From positions 1 through 23,268 of IMG/VR virus record IMGVR_UViG_3300014050_000145: a stretch of 23,268 bases of DNA, one strand, 5' to 3'. Numbering within the stretch: the first letter of the stretch is position 1; each line of letters begins with the position of its first letter. Shown piece after piece: positions 4,217-23,268 of this stretch. The stretch comes from a virus. The notes beneath the pieces were generated by a model. It searched no databases and was not told the origin of the DNA. It saw only the letters and a list, made by a program, of their open reading frames with translations. The position numbers and the translations under genes are program-made.

Positions 4217-6397
4217 TTGAAACTACTGCGTCCATTCGCAGCACTATCCGTAGCAGTTAAAACTGGAAGACTTTTGTTAGGTGGGGGTTTAATTACCCTG
4301 TTTCTTGTTTTTGGCATGTCACAAGAAGCACATGCAACAGGAGAAGTTTCTTCTGAACAAGTCGTTGTCAGTCCTACATGGCAAGCCATGAACAATGCAA
4401 TTCAAACAGCAACTACAGAAGTAACGCAAGCAAATATTGCTAGTGCATCGGCTGCTACATCTGTTACTACTGCATCTACCCAAATTGCAGAAGCCATTAC
4501 TGCTGTTGCTGCATTAAACACTGAAGTTACTGATGCTCAAACCGCTGTTACTCAAATAACAGATGCAATCACATCTGTTGAAACAGCAGACCCAACAACT
4601 ACTAATCAGTCCTCACCCATTGTTACCGCTGCCCAATTAGTTGTGACAAATGCTCAAACAGCAGTGGATGATGCTGAGGCTGCTATTACTACGGCTACAA
4701 CAGAACTAACTCAAGCTACAACAGCCCGCAACGCAGTTACAACATCTTTATCAAATGCTCAAACAGAACTAACACAAGCCAACACAGCACTTGATGCTGC
4801 TCAGACTGCAGTAAATAATCTTCAAGCAACTATTGCAACAACAACCAATGTTTTGGCTGGAGTTGATGATGCTGGTGTTCGTATGAATCTTCCTTTTGAA
4901 ATGCTTATGGGAGGAACTCGGTATAGCAATGTATATGTTGGTTCAAATGCCACAGTAACATTTGGAACAAATGAAGGTTGGGTTTACTACACGACGCCAA
5001 GTGCTCCTTCTATTTCAATTGCTGGATATGACTGGACCACATGGAGCCAAGGTTCTGGAATTACATACTCCACTACAGCCACTAGTTTAGATATTGCTTG
5101 GGACCTTCGTGTGTATCCATTAATGGATATGTCTACCCAAATGACACAAATTCGTTTTAATGCTGATATCAATCCTACTAGCGGTGCTTGGGTTGCAAAC
5201 GTTGCCGTTACTGGTCCTATTCCAAATGGGGCACGGTTTAACGTAAGAGAAACAACTAATGGCGCATTAACATCAATTGTTGATACAAATGATGGTATAG
5301 GTTTTAATGGTCAAATTGGGCAGGGAACATATGTTGCTCCAGCTATTGACCCAAACGCAAACAACGCAACAATTCAAGCAGCAATTGATTCTGCCAATGC
5401 AACAATCTCTCAATTAAATTCAACTATTGGAACAATTGTTGCCCGCAATACAGCAACCTCTCAGGCACTACAAACACTGCCGTCCATTGCAAGTCTTTCT
5501 ACAACTCTTACTAATTCATCAATTATTGTGGAAGGTCTTCAAACTTCTGTAACAACAAAAGCTGCTGCTTTGCAAGATGCAATTGAATTATTGCCAGTTG
5601 CTCAGGCTCCAGCACTTCATACGCCTCCTCAGTATGAAGTAGACAGCGTTGACACATCTACTGACCTTGATACAGAAGAACCATCACAAACCACAGACCA
5701 ATCACAAGAAGACACAAACAATACAGAAACCGACGAAACTGATGCGGTTGATTCTGAGACAGATACATCAACAGACCAAGAACAACAGACACAAGACCAA
5801 GAGCAAGAAAATCAGTCAGAAGAATCACAGACACCTCCAGTAGATGAGGCCCCTACTGTATCAGACGTAGTTGATAATGCTATGGCGGATGGTGTTCTTA
5901 CTGATGCGGAAAAAGAAGCGGTTGTTGATGCATTACTTGAATCAGCAGATGGTGAAGCGTTGACTGCTGAGGCTATTGCAGAAGCTGGATTAGAGTATTC
6001 AGATTTACCACCAGAAACTCCCGTAGAAGTTCGCAAAGATGAAAATGGAAATGAAGTTATAATTACTGCAGAAGTAGCAGCAGCATTACAGCTTTTAGAA
6101 TCCCCTTCTGAATTATTTGGCGCAATATTTAGCGACCCTAGTCAAGTTCTTCTTGCATTAGGAAGTATTGGCGCAGATATGTCTCCACAAGAACGTGAAG
6201 AAGCAACCAAGATGGTTGTTGCAACTGTTGTTGCTGCGGGTGCAGCAATGAATGCAGCAACTGTAGCGGCTAGTGCCGCATCAACAACAACGGGCGGAAG
6301 TAGTGGGGGTACAACTCCAAAGGGTGGCGGAACTGGTGGCGGTCCTGCTGCTGGTAATGACAAACCAAGAAGAACGTTTAGGAGACGTATCAAATGA
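4217..6397 (+). CDS. Large secreted, probably membrane-anchored surface protein, 726 aa
   Basis: Residues 1-40 are a Sec-type signal peptide: basic start (KLLRPF), hydrophobic core LLLGGGLITLFLVFG and an AHA cleavage site near 38-40. Residues 55-212 are Ala/Thr-rich heptads (coiled coil). Residues about 218-375 are a beta-rich domain with LPFEMLMGGTRYSNVYVGSN, faintly like nidogen-type sandwiches. A second helical stretch spans 380-455. Residues 473-545 are an Asp/Glu/Gln/Thr-rich acidic spacer. Residues 547-665 are helical, and 666-690 are hydrophobic (MVVATVVAAGAAMNAATVAA). A Gly-rich linker ends in RRTFRRRIK. The signal peptide plus a late hydrophobic helix and basic tail suggest an outside-facing anchored protein. 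The TTG start is chosen for its ribosome site, since no in-frame ATG precedes the signal. It overlaps the next gene by ATGA. Exclusion, adhesion or virion roles are all possible. Confidence 0.75.
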   Translation: MKLLRPFAALSVAVKTGRLLLGGGLITLFLVFGMSQEAHATGEVSSEQVVVSPTWQAMNNAIQTATTEVTQANIASASAATSVTTASTQIAEAITAVAALNTEVTDAQTAVTQITDAITSVETADPTTTNQSSPIVTAAQLVVTNAQTAVDDAEAAITTATTELTQATTARNAVTTSLSNAQTELTQANTALDAAQTAVNNLQATIATTTNVLAGVDDAGVRMNLPFEMLMGGTRYSNVYVGSNATVTFGTNEGWVYYTTPSAPSISIAGYDWTTWSQGSGITYSTTATSLDIAWDLRVYPLMDMSTQMTQIRFNADINPTSGAWVANVAVTGPIPNGARFNVRETTNGALTSIVDTNDGIGFNGQIGQGTYVAPAIDPNANNATIQAAIDSANATISQLNSTIGTIVARNTATSQALQTLPSIASLSTTLTNSSIIVEGLQTSVTTKAAALQDAIELLPVAQAPALHTPPQYEVDSVDTSTDLDTEEPSQTTDQSQEDTNNTETDETDAVDSETDTSTDQEQQTQDQEQENQSEESQTPPVDEAPTVSDVVDNAMADGVLTDAEKEAVVDALLESADGEALTAEAIAEAGLEYSDLPPETPVEVRKDENGNEVIITAEVAAALQLLESPSELFGAIFSDPSQVLLALGSIGADMSPQEREEATKMVVATVVAAGAAMNAATVAASAASTTTGGSSGGTTPKGGGTGGGPAAGNDKPRRTFRRRIK

Positions 6398-15819: not shown

Positions 15820-16950
15820 ATGGCAAGTGCAATTACAGGCTCCTCGCAACTAGCGAGTGCTCCAACCGCTTACTCAGGTGCTAATAGCTCCCTGAATCAA
15901 GCAATCCAAACAATCTGGTCAAAAGAAATTTTGTTCCAGGCAATGCCAATTCTTCGTTTTGAACAGTTTGCAGTTAAGAAGACTGAACTTGGTGTAGCAC
16001 CAGGTCTTCGTGTGAACTTCCTTCGTTACAAGAACTTTGCTGTAGACCCATCACCTCTTACTGAAGGTGTTCGTATGACAACCAATGCTCTCACAGCAGA
16101 GCAGATTGCAATCACAGTTGCAGAACACGGCTACGCAGTAGCAGTTTCTGAACTTCTCCTTAACGCATCATTTGATGATGTTATGGCATCTGCTTCACGT
16201 CTTCTTGGTCGCCACATGGCACAGTACCTTGATGTTCAGGCACGTAACACACTTTCTGCAGCAACTTCTGCAGTATTTGGTTATGACCGCTCAGGCATCA
16301 CAGGTGGCGCTTTCACAAACTACGATGAAGGCGACGCTGCAACAGCGTTCTCAGACCTTGATGGTAACTTCAAGTTGACAACTGCTGCAATCAAGGACGC
16401 TGCTCTTACCCTTGCTGGTAAGAACATCCCACGCCTTGGCGAAACATACGTACAGTTCGTACACCCTAAGCAGTCTCGTGACCTTCGCTCTAACCCAGAG
16501 TTCATTGAAGTCACAAAGTACGCTGCTCCAGGAAACTTCATGCTCGGTGAAATCGGACGTCTTTACGACGTAGTATTCATTGAAACAACACAGGTTAAGA
16601 AGTTGTCCCAGAACGCTGGATACACAACCTCTTCACTCGTTGGTGTTCCAGCAGACCAGGGAGTTGTTCCTGTTAAGTCAAACACCAACCCAGGTTCAGG
16701 TGGAAACCCAGTATCTGCTGATTACACAGCAGAAAAGGGTTACCTAACATCTGCAACAGGTAACGGTGCTGACGTTTACGAATCAATCATGATTGGTGAC
16801 AACGCATTTGGTCACGCAATCTCTCTTCCAGTTGAACTCCGTGACGGTGGCGTTCTTGACTTCGGTCGTGAGCACGCTCTTGCATGGTACGCAATCTGGG
16901 GTCTCGGTGTAATCACCGACCAGGCTATCGTCAAGGTTTACACAAACTAA
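15820..16950 (+). CDS. Major capsid protein (HK97 fold, N4-gp56-like)
   Basis: A 376-aa capsid protein. Typical segments are SLNQAIQTIWSKEILFQAMP, FAVKKTELGVAPGLRVNFLR, LTEGVRMTTNALTAEQIAIT, VAEHGYAVAVSELLLNASFD, and FVHPKQSRDLRSNPEFIEVT, with GVLDFGREHALAWYAIWGLG at the end. This is the N4-gp56-type capsid family. The ATG at 15820 is 10 bases after AAGGA; the in-frame TTG at 15811 would leave no spacing. Codons are C-ending far more than in the neighbours, consistent with very high expression. A very strong hairpin follows the stop. The scaffold is immediately upstream. Confidence 0.95.
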   Translation: MASAITGSSQLASAPTAYSGANSSLNQAIQTIWSKEILFQAMPILRFEQFAVKKTELGVAPGLRVNFLRYKNFAVDPSPLTEGVRMTTNALTAEQIAITVAEHGYAVAVSELLLNASFDDVMASASRLLGRHMAQYLDVQARNTLSAATSAVFGYDRSGITGGAFTNYDEGDAATAFSDLDGNFKLTTAAIKDAALTLAGKNIPRLGETYVQFVHPKQSRDLRSNPEFIEVTKYAAPGNFMLGEIGRLYDVVFIETTQVKKLSQNAGYTTSSLVGVPADQGVVPVKSNTNPGSGGNPVSADYTAEKGYLTSATGNGADVYESIMIGDNAFGHAISLPVELRDGGVLDFGREHALAWYAIWGLGVITDQAIVKVYTN

Positions 16951-16955
16951 GACTC

Positions 16956-17003
16956 TGTAGTTGTCTGGGGGACCTACTCCTTCCTGGTCCCCCAGCCACT
17001 ACA
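16956..17003 (+). terminator. Strong post-capsid hairpin/terminator
   Basis: CTGGGGGACC (16965-16974) pairs perfectly with GGTCCCCCAG (16986-16995) around an 11-base loop, and TGTAGT (16956-16961) pairs with ACTACA (16998-17003) below a small internal loop: 16 bp in all. No long T-run follows, so it may trim or stabilise capsid mRNA as well as terminate. Confidence 0.75.
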
Positions 17004-17037
17004 CACATTTAAAAAACTACTTTAGGAGAAATACACC

Positions 17038-17409
17038 GTGGCAAATACACAAACAAGTCCATTGGACGCAACAGGGCGTGCTGCAGAAGCAGCTGCTAAG
17101 AAAAATGCAAAAGCATTAAAAGACCGTCAAGATGAGATTTCACTTGCGGCACAAGTTGAGGCAGAACAACTGGAAACACAAATCTTTGACCCAAAGAAAC
17201 CAGATGCTCCAATTGTTTTAGATGAAATTGAAAATGTTGGTGTAACAACGGCTAATGACACAGTTATTATCCGCACAATTACAGACATTGATGACATGAC
17301 TTACGGAGTCGGAAATCACTACAGTTTTAAAGCTGGAGTTAAATACCGAGTACCAGGACATCTCGCTAATTATCTAGAACAACTAGGATATATTTGGCGG
17401 CCTAACTAA
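17038..17409 (+). CDS. Head-associated protein downstream of capsid, 123 aa
   Basis: A GTG start at 17038 has AGGAG 9 bases upstream. Residues 1-45 are helical and Lys/Glu/Ala-rich (GRAAEAAAKKNAKALKDRQD). Residues 55-123 are beta-rich: ITDIDDMTYGVGNHYSFKAG, then VKYRVPGHLANYLEQLGYIW. That last part resembles short phage proteins following capsid genes, with a YxFKxGVKYRVPxxLAxxLxxxGYxW pattern. Head-completion or a neck role is likely by position only. It lies between two strong hairpins. Confidence 0.7.
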   Translation: MANTQTSPLDATGRAAEAAAKKNAKALKDRQDEISLAAQVEAEQLETQIFDPKKPDAPIVLDEIENVGVTTANDTVIIRTITDIDDMTYGVGNHYSFKAGVKYRVPGHLANYLEQLGYIWRPN

Positions 17410-17422
17410 GCCGTCAGCAGTA

Positions 17423-17478
17423 GTCCGACCCTCAACTGGTTCCCGCCCTCCTCCCCGTTGGGGGTTGGACCTTTTTTT
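17423..17478 (+). terminator. Classic Rho-independent terminator
   Basis: A 14-bp stem (17423-17436 with 17457-17470, two G-U wobbles) with a C-rich 20-base loop is followed by C and seven T's (17472-17478). It closes the capsid-region transcript 14 bases after the 123-aa gene. Confidence 0.92.
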
Positions 17479-17525
17479 GGCGTATATATTTGAGATGATT
17501 GTTCCAAATAGTTTTCGGAGGTTAC

Positions 17526-18569
17526 GTGGCTACACTTTCTAGTCTTGCAGACCGTTTAAGGTCTGAACTAGGCGATATGGGAAAATCCTTCGTTTACCAA
17601 TTTACAGCAGACGGAACCACTAATCGTTTTCTTATACCTTACTCTCCTTTAGATGGAGAAGGTCTAATTGTTTTAGATTCTGGTGCAGATGTTTCTGAGG
17701 ATGCAACTGTAGAAGAAACAACTGGCTATTTAACTTTTGATATTGTGCCAACTGCTGGTCACATAATTACTGTTTCTGGAACATACTTCCGTTATTTTAC
17801 AAACGCCGAAGTATGTGAGTACATAGATACTGCTTTTGGGCAACATGTAGCAAACCACGCAGATGGGTATGGGCGTGGATATACATTAGCAACTCTTCCT
17901 GGTATTGAAGAATATCCAGTAGTTGTTTATGCCTCTAGTTTGGCTCTTTATACTTTAGCCACAGATGCTTCTTTTGATATTGATATTCAAGCACCAGACG
18001 GTGTAAACATTCCACGTTCTGAACGGTACCGTCAGTTAATGCAAATGATTGAAGTGCGTAAACAACAGTATCGTGAACTCTGTTCACAACTTGGTATTGG
18101 TCTTTACAAAATTGACGTATTCTCATTGCGCCGAATTTCAAAGACAACTAATCGTTACGTTCCTGTTTATCTTCCTATGGAAGTTGATGACCGCTCTATG
18201 CCACGTCGTGCCATCATTCCTATTCCTAGTTATGGTTCTGCTATTTCTCCATCAGATGTTCCTACATATGATTTAACAATGTATGAAGGTGACTCATTTG
18301 AAGTAACATTAGATTTCCCATTTGATGTAACTGATTACACATTTAAATCACAAATTCGTGTAAACTATGGCGACCCAACAGTTGCTGCAACATTTGCTAC
18401 AGAACAAACGGATACTGACAAAGTGAAAATATCTTTAACGCCAGAACAAACTGCATCTTTACCAGAACGTGCGTATTGGGATATTCAAGGAACAACAGAG
18501 TCTGACCCAACGTATCAACAGACCTATATGCGAGGCGCTGTATTCTGCACACGACAGGTGACTGATTAA
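17526..18569 (+). CDS. Head-tail or fibre-base protein, 347 aa, with BppU-like C-terminal domain
   Basis: GTG at 17526 is 4 bases after GGAGG (17517-17521). A TTG at 17499 is in frame but has no ribosome site. Residues about 1-85 are beta-rich (VYQFTADGTTNRFLIPYSPL). Residues 90-215 are helical (FTNAEVCEYIDTAFGQHVAN; ERYRQLMQMIEVRKQQYREL). Residues 248-347 resemble the beta-sandwich of BppU-type baseplate proteins: YDLTMYEGDSFEVTLDFPFD, YTFKSQIRVNYGDPTVAATF, ISLTPEQTASLPERAYWDIQ, MRGAVFCTRQVTD. That domain often holds fibres or receptor-binding parts. It follows a terminator and overlaps the fibre gene at 18569, so it may mount the fibres. Anchor role is inferred. Confidence 0.75.
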   Translation: MATLSSLADRLRSELGDMGKSFVYQFTADGTTNRFLIPYSPLDGEGLIVLDSGADVSEDATVEETTGYLTFDIVPTAGHIITVSGTYFRYFTNAEVCEYIDTAFGQHVANHADGYGRGYTLATLPGIEEYPVVVYASSLALYTLATDASFDIDIQAPDGVNIPRSERYRQLMQMIEVRKQQYRELCSQLGIGLYKIDVFSLRRISKTTNRYVPVYLPMEVDDRSMPRRAIIPIPSYGSAISPSDVPTYDLTMYEGDSFEVTLDFPFDVTDYTFKSQIRVNYGDPTVAATFATEQTDTDKVKISLTPEQTASLPERAYWDIQGTTESDPTYQQTYMRGAVFCTRQVTD

Positions 18570-19096
18570 TGGCAAAAGTTTCTAATTACACAATGGACTG
18601 CGGTTGCGTAGGTACATGTACTTGCGGAACTCAAGGCATCACAATTCAAGTTCTTCCTGGACAAGGCGGAGCACGAGGACCACAAGGTACTCAAGGAGCA
18701 ACGGGTTCAGGTTCGCAAGGAATCCAAGGAACTCAAGGACTTATTGGTCCTGGAGGTGGAGCGCAAGGTATCCAAGGTTTGCAGGGAACTGCAGGCGGAG
18801 GAGCAACCCTTCAAGACATTTCTGATGCTATTCAAAGCGCTGCTTTGGGAAGCACAGATGATTTATCTGAAGGTGTTACAAATCTTTACTTTACTACTGC
18901 TCGTGTCTCTTATATCCACACACAAGGGTCCGCGAGTAGTTCGTGGTTAATTACTCATAATTTAGGATTTCATCCCAACGTAACTGTTGTAGACTCAGCA
19001 GGGAACATCGTAGAGGGTGAACTTTCGTACACTAATTTGGACTCCTTAACCGCAACATTTAGTACTGCCTTTAGCGGCACAGCGTACCTATCTTAA
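18569..19096 (+). CDS. Short collagen-like fibre protein, 175 aa
   Basis: Residues 10-21 hold a Cys cluster (CGCVGTCTCG), which could crosslink chains. Residues about 31-85 are Gly-X-Y repeats ([20 protein letters not shown]) with short breaks. Residues 88-115 contain [20 protein letters not shown], a segment shared with the gene at 22027. The C-terminus WLITHNLGFHPNVTVVDSAG and the AYLS end form a fibre-tip domain common in phage tail fibres. It would trimerise. The start overlaps the previous stop (TAATG). The host-binding role is inferred from the layout. Confidence 0.85.
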   Translation: MAKVSNYTMDCGCVGTCTCGTQGITIQVLPGQGGARGPQGTQGATGSGSQGIQGTQGLIGPGGGAQGIQGLQGTAGGGATLQDISDAIQSAALGSTDDLSEGVTNLYFTTARVSYIHTQGSASSSWLITHNLGFHPNVTVVDSAGNIVEGELSYTNLDSLTATFSTAFSGTAYLS

Positions 19097-19108
19097 GGAG
19101 ATAGAATT

Positions 19109-21997
19109 ATGGCACGTAAGTTTTTAACACCAATTGATTTAGGCAAACTTGAATTACAGAATGCCCGAATTCAAAACCTTTCCTCTTCTAATGCTCCAGC
19201 GTCTCCAGTTGAAGGTCAGATTTACTATGACACAACTGACCATGTATTAAAGACATGGAACGGTATCGCTTGGATTACATCTAATCAAGGTGTGCAAGGT
19301 TCCCAGGGAACACAGGGCATTCAAGGCACACAAGGTGTGCAAGGAACTCAAGGACAGACTGGTACTCAAGGTTCTACTGGTACACAAGGTGCAGAAGGTG
19401 CACAAGGTTACAATGGAAGTAACGGTACTCAAGGTGAAACAGGTACTCAAGGTATTCAAGGTGAGACTGGTATTCAAGGTGCTGATGGTACAGATGCACT
19501 TTGGAACTTCACTGGTGCTTATGGTATTGGAACTTCGTATGCAGTTGGTGATGTAGCAACATACGGGGGACAGACTTGGTACCGTATTGATGCTCACGGC
19601 GGAAATACTGGAGACACTCCTTCAGAAGGAGCGTATTGGACACTTCTTGCTGCACAAGGTGCACAGGGTACAACTGGTTCACAAGGTGAAACAGGTACCC
19701 AAGGTATTCAGGGTGAAGTTGGTACACAAGGTGTTCAAGGTTTACAGGGCGAACAAGGTGTTCAAGGATACGAAGGAACACAAGGTCTCCAAGGTGAGAC
19801 AGGTCTTCAAGGAGCCGATGGTTCATTTGGTGGCGTAACAGTTGAGTACGAAACAAATGCAAGCACAACAATGGCAGACCCTGGTTCAGGAACCATTCGT
19901 TTTAATACTGCAGATACTTCAAACTCTACACATATTGCTATTGACCAAGAAGATATCAATGCAACTGATATTGCTTCTTATCTACAAACAATTGATGACT
20001 CTAGTTCAACAATTAAGGGTCACGTAAAGATTTCTGTTAAGACCAACCCAGCCGTATTTGGCATTTGGGCAATCAACTCAATGGTTGATAACTCAGGTTG
20101 GTACAACATTGATGTAACACCACTTTCAGGCAGTGGCGATATTCCAGATGGCAGCGATGTTCTTGTAACATTTGCTCGTACAGGTGATATTGGTGCTCAA
20201 GGTATTCAAGGTACACAGGGTGAAACTGGTATTCAAGGAGAGACAGGAACCCAGGGAGTTCAGGGAGAAACTGGAACCCAAGGCGTACAAGGTGAGACAG
20301 GAACTCAAGGTACACAGGGTGTACAAGGAGAAACTGGTACACAAGGCGTACAAGGAGAACAAGGTACACAAGGTATTCAAGGCTTTGATGGAACTCAAGG
20401 AACTACAGGTACTCAGGGAGAAACAGGAACCCAAGGTGTACAAGGCGAAACAGGAACTCAGGGAGTTCAAGGTGAAACTGGTACACAAGGTATTCAGGGT
20501 GTACAGGGTGAAACGGGAACTCAGGGCGTTCAGGGTGAGCAAGGCATTCAGGGAGTACAAGGCGAACAGGGTGTACAAGGTACGCAAGGTGAAACTGGTA
20601 TCCAGGGTGCTGAAGGTTCATTTGGCGGTGTAACAGTTGAGTATGTTTATGATGACACAACAACTGTGGCTGACCCAGGTGATACATATATTCGCCTTAA
20701 TGCTGCTCCAGCATCTGCAACTCATTTCTTAATTGATGACATTAATGCTGCAAACGTAGACATTCACTCATACCTACAGACTATTGATGATTCAACATCA
20801 GCCATCAAGGGCCATGTAAAGATTTCTAAGAAGTCAAACCCTGCAGTATTTGCAATGTATGCAATTAACTCAATGGTTGACCAAGCGACATACTTTGATA
20901 TTGATGTTACATACCTATCTGGTTCTGGAACATTAACTGACAATGATGCAGTACTGATTACTTTTGCCCGCACTGGTGACGTTGGTGCACAGGGTGTGCA
21001 AGGTGAGCAAGGAACTCAAGGCACTCAAGGAACTCAAGGCGAGCAGGGTACTCAGGGAGTACAGGGTGAAATTGGTACTCAGGGAGTTCAAGGTGAAACA
21101 GGAACTCAAGGTACTCAAGGAACCCAAGGTGAGCAGGGTACACAGGGCGTTCAAGGCGAGCAGGGTATTCAAGGAACCCAAGGTGAGCAAGGAACCCAAG
21201 GTACACAAGGCTTACAAGGCGAGCAAGGCACACAAGGTGTGCAAGGCGAGCAAGGAATTCAAGGTATTCAAGGTGAGACTGGTTTACAAGGCGCTCAAGG
21301 AGTTCAAGGCGAACAAGGCGTACAGGGCTATGAAGGTGCTCAGGGTCTTCAGGGAGAAACTGGTATTCAAGGCGCTCAGGGTACACAGGGTGAGCAGGGA
21401 ATCCAAGGTACACAAGGTACTGAAGGAAACTCAGACCGTTACAAAACCACTTCTACAACAGAACTAACAATTTCTGCTAGTGGAACTAAAACGCTTACTG
21501 TTGAGACAGGTTTAAGTTATTCAGTTGGTCAAGACATTGTTATTGCATACGATGTCAGCAACCACATGTCTGCCACAGTTTCATCTTACAACTCTGGAAC
21601 TGGTTCACTTGTTGCAGTTGTCAATGACAAAGTTGGTTCTGGAACTTACTCAGCATGGTCAGTAAACTTAGATGGTGCTACTGGTGTACAGGGTACACAG
21701 GGTATCCAAGGTCTACAAGGTCAATCTATCCAAGGTGCTCAAGGTACTTCTGGACAAGATGGAACTTATGCAACAACCATCACTGGAACATCAACAGATG
21801 GTGGAGTTACTGGAACTACAGCGTTTACCATTACACACAACCTTGGCACAACTGATATCATCGTAGCGGTATACGATACCTCTACAGCAATGGAAGTTGT
21901 TACAGATATCACATACTTAACAACATCAACAGCAACAATTGGATTTGCGGTTGCGCCAATCACTACTAAGTCATACAGAGTTGTAGTAAAGGCCTAA
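19109..21997 (+). CDS. Long collagen-like fibre protein, 962 aa
   Basis: ATG at 19109 with TTAAGGAG upstream. N-terminal domain 1-59 ([20 protein letters not shown]). Collagen-like blocks follow at about 60-128, 181-238, 361-503, 625-774 and a short one at 856-882. Between them: a CBM5/12-like module at 130-180 ([20 protein letters not shown]...YWTLL); two homologous 121-122-aa fibre domains at 239-360 and 504-624; a beta domain at 775-855 ([20 protein letters not shown]); and a C-terminal tip at 883-962 ([20 protein letters not shown]). Repeats are nearly all Gly-X-Gln and Gly-Glu-Thr with almost no Pro. It is probably a trimeric receptor-binding fibre. Its neighbours are further fibre genes. 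Confidence 0.9.
19283..19492 (+). repeat. Collagen-like coding repeat, block 1
   Basis: A 9-base-period repeat of GGT/GGA-X-CAA or ACT codons encodes [20 protein letters not shown]-type triplets. The near-identical units make this region prone to slippage and unequal exchange. Confidence 0.85.
19823..20188 (+). repeat. Duplicated fibre domain, copy 1 (122 aa)
   Basis: Encodes [12 protein letters not shown]...VTFARTGD. It aligns along its length with copy 2 at 20618, sharing [12 protein letters not shown], [25 protein letters not shown] and TFARTGD. The family resembles fibre domains ending ARTGD in other phages. Confidence 0.85.
20195..20617 (+). repeat. Collagen-like coding repeat, block between the two fibre domains
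   Basis: Encodes an uninterrupted run of Gly triplets ([20 protein letters not shown]) with one FDG break. The unit GETGTQGVQ returns many times, which points to recent expansion. Confidence 0.85.
20618..20980 (+). repeat. Duplicated fibre domain, copy 2 (121 aa)
   Basis: Encodes [12 protein letters not shown]...ITFARTGD. It is clearly homologous to copy 1 but diverged throughout, so the duplication is old or the copies were acquired separately. It is bounded by collagen-like repeats on both sides. Confidence 0.85.
20987..21429 (+). repeat. Collagen-like coding repeat, longest block
   Basis: About 49 Gly-X-Y triplets ([20 protein letters not shown]). Most triplets end in Gln, with Glu-Gln-Gly prominent. 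Antisense long frames across it are artefacts of the repeat. Confidence 0.85.
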
Positions 21998-22026
21998 CCG
22001 AACTACTGAGTTAGGAGTACAGCAGT

Positions 22027-23268
22027 ATGGCCCGTAGGGTTTTAGTTCCACTTGGCTTATTAGCCATGTCTGCTGACCCTACGGGTGTAAACGCTGGAGA
22101 TGCTTACTACAATACAGTTTCTGAAAAAATCAGAATCTTTAATGGCACGACTTGGGAAGATTCTGGTGCATCGCTTCAAGATGTAACTGATGCAATTCAG
22201 AACAACGCTCTTACCTCTACTGATGATTTATCAGAAGGTATTCAAAATCTTTACTACACAAATCAAAGAGTTGCTACCGCTTTAAATAGCGGCGATTTAC
22301 AAAACATTACATTTACCTACCAGTCAATGGATGACACCATTGATGTATCAGTACCAACAGTTCAAGGCACTACTGGAGCACAAGGAACTCAAGGTACACA
22401 AGGAACTACAGGTTCCCAAGGCGCTACAGGCACACAAGGAAATCTTGGTTCAACTGGGTCGCAAGGTACTCAAGGAACTACAGGTTCTCAAGGAACTACT
22501 GGCTCTACTGGTACGCAAGGGTCAACAGGTATTCAAGGTGCTCAGGGAACTATAGGTACAACGGGTTCTCAGGGTACAACTGGAACTACTGGTACTCAGG
22601 GAGCCACAGGAGATACAGGTTCGCAAGGAACCACAGGCTCTACTGGAGCACAAGGAACAACTGGTTCTCAAGGTACAACTGGAATTCAAGGAACAATTGG
22701 TACCCAAGGAACAACTGGTAGCCAAGGTACAACAGGTTCAACTGGTTCGCAAGGAATCCAAGGAACTCAGGGCATAACAGGTAACCAAGGTACTACTGGT
22801 ACCTCTGGTACGTCTTCTACTAATTATGCCTACAGAGCAGATACAACAAACCAGACAGATTCACAACCATCTAACGGTTATTTGCGTTGGAATAATGCAA
22901 CGCAAAAATCTGCAACATACCTTTATGTAAATCATCTTACTCAACTTGGATTTGACGTTGACGTATTTTTGGCGCTTATTAAACAGTACGACAATCTTAT
23001 TATTCAAAAACAAACAGACTCAAATCAATACATTACTTATCAAGTAACTGGTGCTGTCACTGTAATATCAAATAGTTATGTAAAAATCCCTGTATCAACT
23101 ACAGGCGATGGTGGTACGGGCAATGATTCTTTTTCTAACAATGAAAACATTGACTTAATTCTTTTTACTACTGGTCTGCAAGGTGCACAAGGAACAATTG
23201 GTTCAACTGGTTCGCAAGGCACCACAGGAGCGCAAGGTGTGCAAGGCTCTACTGGTACACAGGGAAGT
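22027..23268 (+). CDS. Third collagen-like fibre protein, partial (3' end beyond the window)
   Basis: ATG at 22027 with TTAGGAG upstream; 414 codons are open to the window edge. N-terminal domain 1-52 ([40 protein letters not shown]) is related to the start of the 962-aa fibre. [20 protein letters not shown] at about 64-84 is shared with the 175-aa fibre. Collagen-like repeats cover about 112-258, here Gly-Thr-Thr, Gly-Ser-Gln and Gly-Ala-Gln types rather than Gly-Glu-Thr. A globular domain follows at about 260-382 ([40 protein letters not shown]), then repeats resume. It is probably an alternative or additional fibre. The tip is not visible. Confidence 0.88.

Follow-up and report, generated by a model that had tools for sequence, protein, structure and literature searches.

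Nearly proline-free Gly-X-Y fibre genes of an actinophage-like virus and their companion domain

Within a viral DNA stretch of 23,268 nucleotides (IMG/VR record IMGVR_UViG_3300014050_000145; hereafter the window), three consecutive plus-strand open reading frames (ORFs), termed A, B and C, encode proteins with Gly-X-Y repeats, which in B and C hold no proline at the X and Y positions. We consider it probable, though well short of certain, that an actinophage-like virus uses these proteins as tail or neck fibres, built as trimeric, clamped Gly-X-Y rods. Each fibre would probably be a homotrimer with the rod as its shaft, in which glycine at every third position would allow three chains to pack, and a β-rich clamp domain, together with the N- and C-terminal domains, would keep the chains in register. 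The rods of B span about 50 triplets between clamps, and each would measure about 43 nm if collagen geometry applies. Clamps every 40–60 triplets, combined with the cool aquatic setting that we assume, could make proline and charge pairs dispensable, and the X/Y composition would therefore be free to drift by lineage. The same clamp is found with GTQ/GTT triplets in the window and with GSS/GTS, GFQ/GNQ or proline-rich GPT triplets elsewhere. The absence of proline is real and well described for B and C and ordinary for the lineage, and what stabilizes the rods is a testable question.

Endolysin-like, terminase, portal and major capsid genes follow one another in this order along the window. 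The nearest named phages are Streptomyces phages of the BRock/LuckySocke group (53–54% identity for the terminase and 59–62% for the major capsid protein), which makes an actinobacterial host likely; these phages also share the order of the terminase, portal, scaffold and capsid genes. However, a 29.5-kb stretch of LuckySocke is without any Gly-X-Y run, whereas the window virus has such runs. The fibre genes sit after the capsid and adaptor-like genes, among late structural genes (Table 1). Residues 254–349 of the adaptor-like protein match PF23926 (Pfam, E 1.7e-8), and residues 13–257 match a hypothetical protein of BRock/LuckySocke encoded between the capsid and tail genes; an adaptor role is plausible, and the fibres could attach there. 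The contig L125 matches window positions 16762–23268 (6,507 bases) at 99.97% identity, extends beyond the window and provides the complete C product of 549 residues.

Table 1. Features of the fibre region in the window and on the contig L125
Feature	Position	Strand	Description
Adaptor-like gene	17499..18569	+	Directly upstream of the fibres; C-terminal LtfC-like β-sandwich PF23926
Fibre gene A	18569..19096	+	175 aa; C-terminal domain with ITHNLG motif
Fibre gene B	19109..21997	+	962 aa; 154 triplets; tail fibre PHROGs
CBM5/12-like carbohydrate-binding module	19493..19654	+	Between Gly-X-Y stretches of B
Clamp domain copy 1 of B	19814..20185	+	β domain between Gly-X-Y rods
Uninterrupted rod, 50 Gly-X-Y triplets	20183..20632	+	In B
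Clamp domain copy 2 of B	20618..20977	+	61% identical to copy 1
Uninterrupted rod, 51 Gly-X-Y triplets	20975..21433	+	In B
Fibre gene C	22027..23268	+	Truncated at the window end, with 414 aa inside
Domain of C, remotely clamp-like	22819..23172	+	hhalign probability 95.8, E 7.8e-9, 17% identity
GH130/GT108-fold gene	L125:6930-7931		333 aa; starts 15 bases past the last base of C
TPR-methyltransferase gene	L125:7903-9231		After the GH130/GT108-fold gene

An earlier note on this DNA had described a three-gene array of nearly proline-free collagen-like fibres with Gly-X-Gln, Gly-Glu-Thr and Gly-Thr-Thr repeats; the array and the triplet types stand, and the near absence of proline holds for B and C (0 Pro in 214 triplets) but not for A (2 Pro in 15 triplets). 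Counting runs of at least four Gly-X-Y triplets, we found that B is dominated by GTQ (40), GVQ (22), GET (17), GIQ (16) and GEQ (13), and the part of C within the window, with 60 triplets, by GTT (14), GTQ (9), GSQ (9) and GST (7). Gln and Thr occupy most Y sites, and the Gln residues of B are strongly partitioned (108 in Y, 3 in X). The runs of A are short and broken, and both of its prolines are at X (2 of 15 X sites). The Pfam Collagen family PF01391 matches B (226.5 bits) and C (97.4 bits) well above its cut-off of 27.2 and does not match A, whose C-terminal domain matches phrog_30556 (PHROG, E 1.1e-19); an A homologue is present at 61 of the relatives' loci described below (best 80 of 163). 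The fibres match many tail PHROGs, with the repeats accounting for part of the scores, and sequence and position together place A, B and C among putative phage tail fibres or collagen-like minor tail proteins. The CBM5/12-like module (PF02839, E 2e-4, 21.7 bits, under the curated cut-off of 26.2) lies inside fibre B and suggests glycan binding, and the fibres may serve in host binding.

The proline depletion is specific to the repeats. In 20 other genes of the window, proline accounts for 4.8% of the non-Gly residues, which predicts about 21 prolines in the 428 X/Y sites of B and C, where there are none, and about 22 in the 458 sites of all three fibres, where there are two (binomial 4e-8). 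The imino-acid-rich X/Y sites typical of PF01391, although not strictly required in that family, are thus absent from B and C. With B and C nearly devoid of proline, their stabilization cannot come from imino acids, in line with the earlier proposal that such helices are held by other means. Charges, which the same proposal had offered as one such means, are refuted for B and C: neither the 154 triplets of B nor the 60 of C contain Lys or Arg at X or Y, against 47 expected for the two proteins. The rods therefore have no internal salt bridges, and stabilization by charge pairs is ruled out. Hydrogen bonding by Gln and Thr, the other means then proposed, may play a part, as these residues occupy most Y sites, but the X/Y order in proline-poor loci scores no better than its reverse (see below).

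The composition had also been regarded as unusual, and this was not borne out: it proved common in related phages, the outcome that the note itself had named as refuting. With the adaptor gene serving as neutral marker, we took the best 80 of 163 related loci, 70 of which have at least 600 bases downstream of that gene. A Gly-X-Y ORF follows in 44 of these 70 and no such gene in the other 26, which weighs against the fibre reading given above. Among the 44, proline makes up at most 1% of X/Y sites in 30 and at most 5% in 39; five loci (L190, L191 and L196–L198) are proline-rich, and in the adaptor-gene tree (71 rows) they fall in one separate, well supported clade, apart from that of the window. 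Several rows are near-identical, both here and among the best 80 of 172 clamp loci considered below, and as best-80 samples these counts describe near kin. A wider census of viral Gly-X-Y loci, an arbitrary set from the matches listed (120 loci taken, 9 without a kept run, 111 kept, some of them, such as L044, L011 and L023, probably not collagen), gave 29 of 111 loci with at most 1% Pro and 56 of 111 with more than 10%. As proline-poor repeats are the rule in the relatives and make up this share of the census, proline-free rods are a frequent viral variety, ordinary for the window's lineage, and no oddity. Among open-licence PMC papers, we recognized none on proline-free phage collagens by title.

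Viral and bacterial collagen-like proteins (PF01391; Rasmussen et al. 2003) share Gly-X-Y runs with the present fibres and occur among phage structural proteins. Fibres of the same composition are represented by WJZ48255 of Synechococcus phage DSL-LC02, whose GTQ/GTT repeats have a single Pro over 129 triplets and neither Lys nor Arg; DSL-LC02 is, however, a Kyanoviridae cyanophage rather than an actinophage, and its rods are mostly short, with 54 triplets at most. Conversely, the collagen triple helix repeat proteins of Actinomycetia phage DSL-LC01 share the clamp domain (41% identity) and a lake-water source, but their repeats are of the proline-rich GPT type (69 Pro in 94 triplets), unlike those of B and C. 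Bacterial collagen-like proteins are reported to have Pro at 19–31% of X sites, compared with none in B and C, and their Y sites are rich in Thr and Gln, residues that the source stresses (PMC8968730). The EPclA-type prophage collagens of E. coli O157:H7 similarly place Gly-X-Y shafts between globular domains, but differ in having Pro at about half of the X sites, many charged residues and a melting temperature of 42 °C (PMC3368898).

The clamp domain comes together with such repeats throughout. At all 81 clamp loci (80 contig loci from the best 80 of 172, one of them a near-copy of the window, and DSL-LC01), the same ORF carries Gly-X-Y repeats, whose proline content ranges from 0 to 39% and whose triplets differ greatly. 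Because the domain is accompanied by repeats at every one of these loci while proline content and triplets vary, the most economical interpretation is that the rods are held by the clamp. An AlphaFold2 (AF2) model of copy 1, run on the domain alone as a monomer, reached a pLDDT of 86.8, and the predicted fold recurs in BFVD (TM up to 0.91), where it resembles parts of the models for 'collagen triple helix repeat' proteins from phages, a marseillevirus, Indivirus and Klosneuvirus. The model matched no PDB fold at E 1e-3, a point against the proposed trimer, and the sequence gave no credible PDB match and no Pfam match; a domain that recurs in phage and giant-virus collagen-like proteins in this way merits an experimental structure. 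At L246, L248, L249, L251, L252 and L269–L272, the same clamp accompanies Gly-Ser-Ser, Gly-Thr-Ser and Gly-Thr-Asp repeats of up to 540 triplets per ORF, in which Pro is almost absent and Gln absent. If proline-free rods do form triple helices, glycine spacing and trimer clamps would suffice for it, which can be tested on constructs a few hundred residues long and would be useful for the bacterial production of collagen-like materials.

The gene that follows C, just beyond the window, encodes a protein predicted to have the fold of the GH130/GT108 clan. Its AF2 model (pLDDT 85) matches mannoside phosphorylases and GDP-mannose-dependent mannosyltransferases of Leishmania (Foldseek against the PDB, best E 3e-10), and ranks 1–40 are nearly all GH130/GT108 enzymes; the sequence had no match in Pfam, PHROG or NCBIfam. 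This neighbourhood raises the alternative that the Thr-rich, proline-free rods are stabilized by sugars, the phage enzyme and its TPR/methyltransferase partner O-mannosylating fibre Thr, and Thr mannosylation possibly taking over the role of hydroxyproline in animal collagen. We regard this as unlikely. In its favour, Thr is abundant in B and C, the enzyme gene adjoins C, and repeats near the enzyme are proline-poor: among the best 80 loci for each query, 62 found with the enzyme (all with at most 5% Pro) and 28 found with a divergent form carry repeats, and all 90 repeat-bearing loci of the pooled 160 are proline-poor, against the background of 56 of 111 census loci above 10% Pro (matches listed). 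All 27 enzyme loci of at least 15 kb within the best 80 have repeats, and the nearest repeat ORF lies at a median distance of 1.8 kb (94 of 164 loci with repeats). Clustering the enzymes from the best-80 listings at 70% identity left 37 clusters, 24 with repeats, of which 23 are proline-poor and one (L092) is proline-rich. Moreover, among adaptor relatives in records of at least 20 kb, the enzyme is present in 7 of 9 proline-poor, 0 of 4 proline-rich and 0 of 8 repeat-free ones.

Homologues occur in only 3 of 50,697 phage records, namely DSL-LC02, S-SCSM2R and DSL-LC01. In DSL-LC02, an unrelated cyanophage, the proline-poor collagen-like gene adjoins a gene annotated as a β-mannosyltransferase and two FkbM methyltransferase genes, an arrangement like that next to C, and in S-SCSM2R about 9 kb separate the homologue from a Collagen match. 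Nineteen contig records have the enzyme without repeats nearby, and 9 of these show a Collagen match elsewhere. GT25 genes also occur in the records of 6 of 46 relatives, each of them proline-poor. Downstream of proline-poor fibres, genes for GT25 (PF01755) and a GlcNAc transferase (PF11397) are located at L178:14593-15201, L187:15796-16437 and L184:9328-10557.

Several results weigh against sugar stabilization. Only 1 of 15 proline-poor (≤2%) census records searched has the enzyme, which leads us to reject it as a general partner of proline-free repeats, and it occurs in 4 of 50 census records overall, two of them proline-rich (L092 and L120). Thirteen proline-poor clamp records lack it, DSL-LC01 combines a distant homologue with proline-rich fibres, and 52 of the best 80 divergent-form loci have no repeats within 10 kb. 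Because the enzyme loci are related to one another, shared lineage may account for the association. Furthermore, the possible targets include another virion protein, DNA and host glycans; cultured freshwater actinophages are reported to carry glycosyltransferases, which are discussed as modifiers of DNA or the cell wall (PMC10202952), and such enzymes may therefore have other targets. We interpret these genes as a cassette for fibre modification that goes with the Gly-Thr-Gln/Thr class and may act by mannosylating Thr. The broader proposal is that a transferable cassette (the GH130/GT108-fold enzyme, TPR, methyltransferase and sometimes a GT25 or GlcNAc transferase) modifies fibre Thr, allows triple helices without proline, hydroxyproline or salt bridges, and has moved with the fibres between actinophages and cyanophages; this we hold to be speculative and doubtful. 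The recurring neighbourhood makes sugar-based stabilization directly testable.

A further alternative is that the repeats are flexible or polyglycine-II-like linkers that space the β domains and form no triple helix. The lack of imino acids and charge pairs agrees with it, as does the order of X and Y residues in proline-poor loci, which ignores triple-helix propensities: scored with host–guest melting values, the actual order beats the reverse order in 18 of 35 relatives (best 80 of 163) and in 10 of 55 clamp-domain loci (best 80 of 172). This order also weighs against our preferred reading, and we rejected the idea that triple-helix propensity drives the choice of X and Y. On the same values, the order in B and C is slightly above random, with 97 and 8 of 2,000 swaps, respectively, equally good. 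Against linkers stands the selection on strict Gly periodicity. Across seven ortholog pairs with 141 synonymous changes, none of 1,037 Gly sites changed, compared with 61 of 1,037 X sites and 72 of 1,037 Y sites; these pairs share members, and the L231/L232 pair (11 of 101 Gly changed) was left out, its ORFs being misaligned. Long unbroken rods of 40–66 triplets recur among proline-free orthologs, the X/Y asymmetry is strong, as in the Gln of B, and proline-rich versions sit on the same clamp domain. Linkers are accordingly improbable in our judgement. The strict Gly conservation in close pairs makes a Gly-packed rod likely, and it is this conservation that points to a triple helix of three chains. 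Sequence searches of the rods against the PDB returned ordinary collagens through the Gly period, a result uninformative on structure.

That proline is missing merely through genome base composition is very improbable: proline and GC are weakly correlated (rho 0.24, p 0.03, 86 census loci) and proline-rich relatives have a GC of 0.46–0.50 (5 loci) against 0.41–0.46 in the 16 proline-poor loci examined, but for census loci with a GC under 0.35 the median is 11% Pro, and the within-genome comparison already disfavours this explanation, with other window genes at 4.5% Pro at the same GC and the repeats far below expectation. Clamped trimeric fibres thus remain the reading that we prefer.

Two further ORFs of the window were noted in passing. 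Positions 4217–6397 contain a 726-aa ORF with a TTG start that appears coiled-coil-like (sub-threshold Pfam match) and has no PHROG match. Positions 1424–1978 encode a 184-aa, Ntn-hydrolase-like protein with a marginal match to a proteasome subunit (22.9 bits against a cut-off of 22.4).
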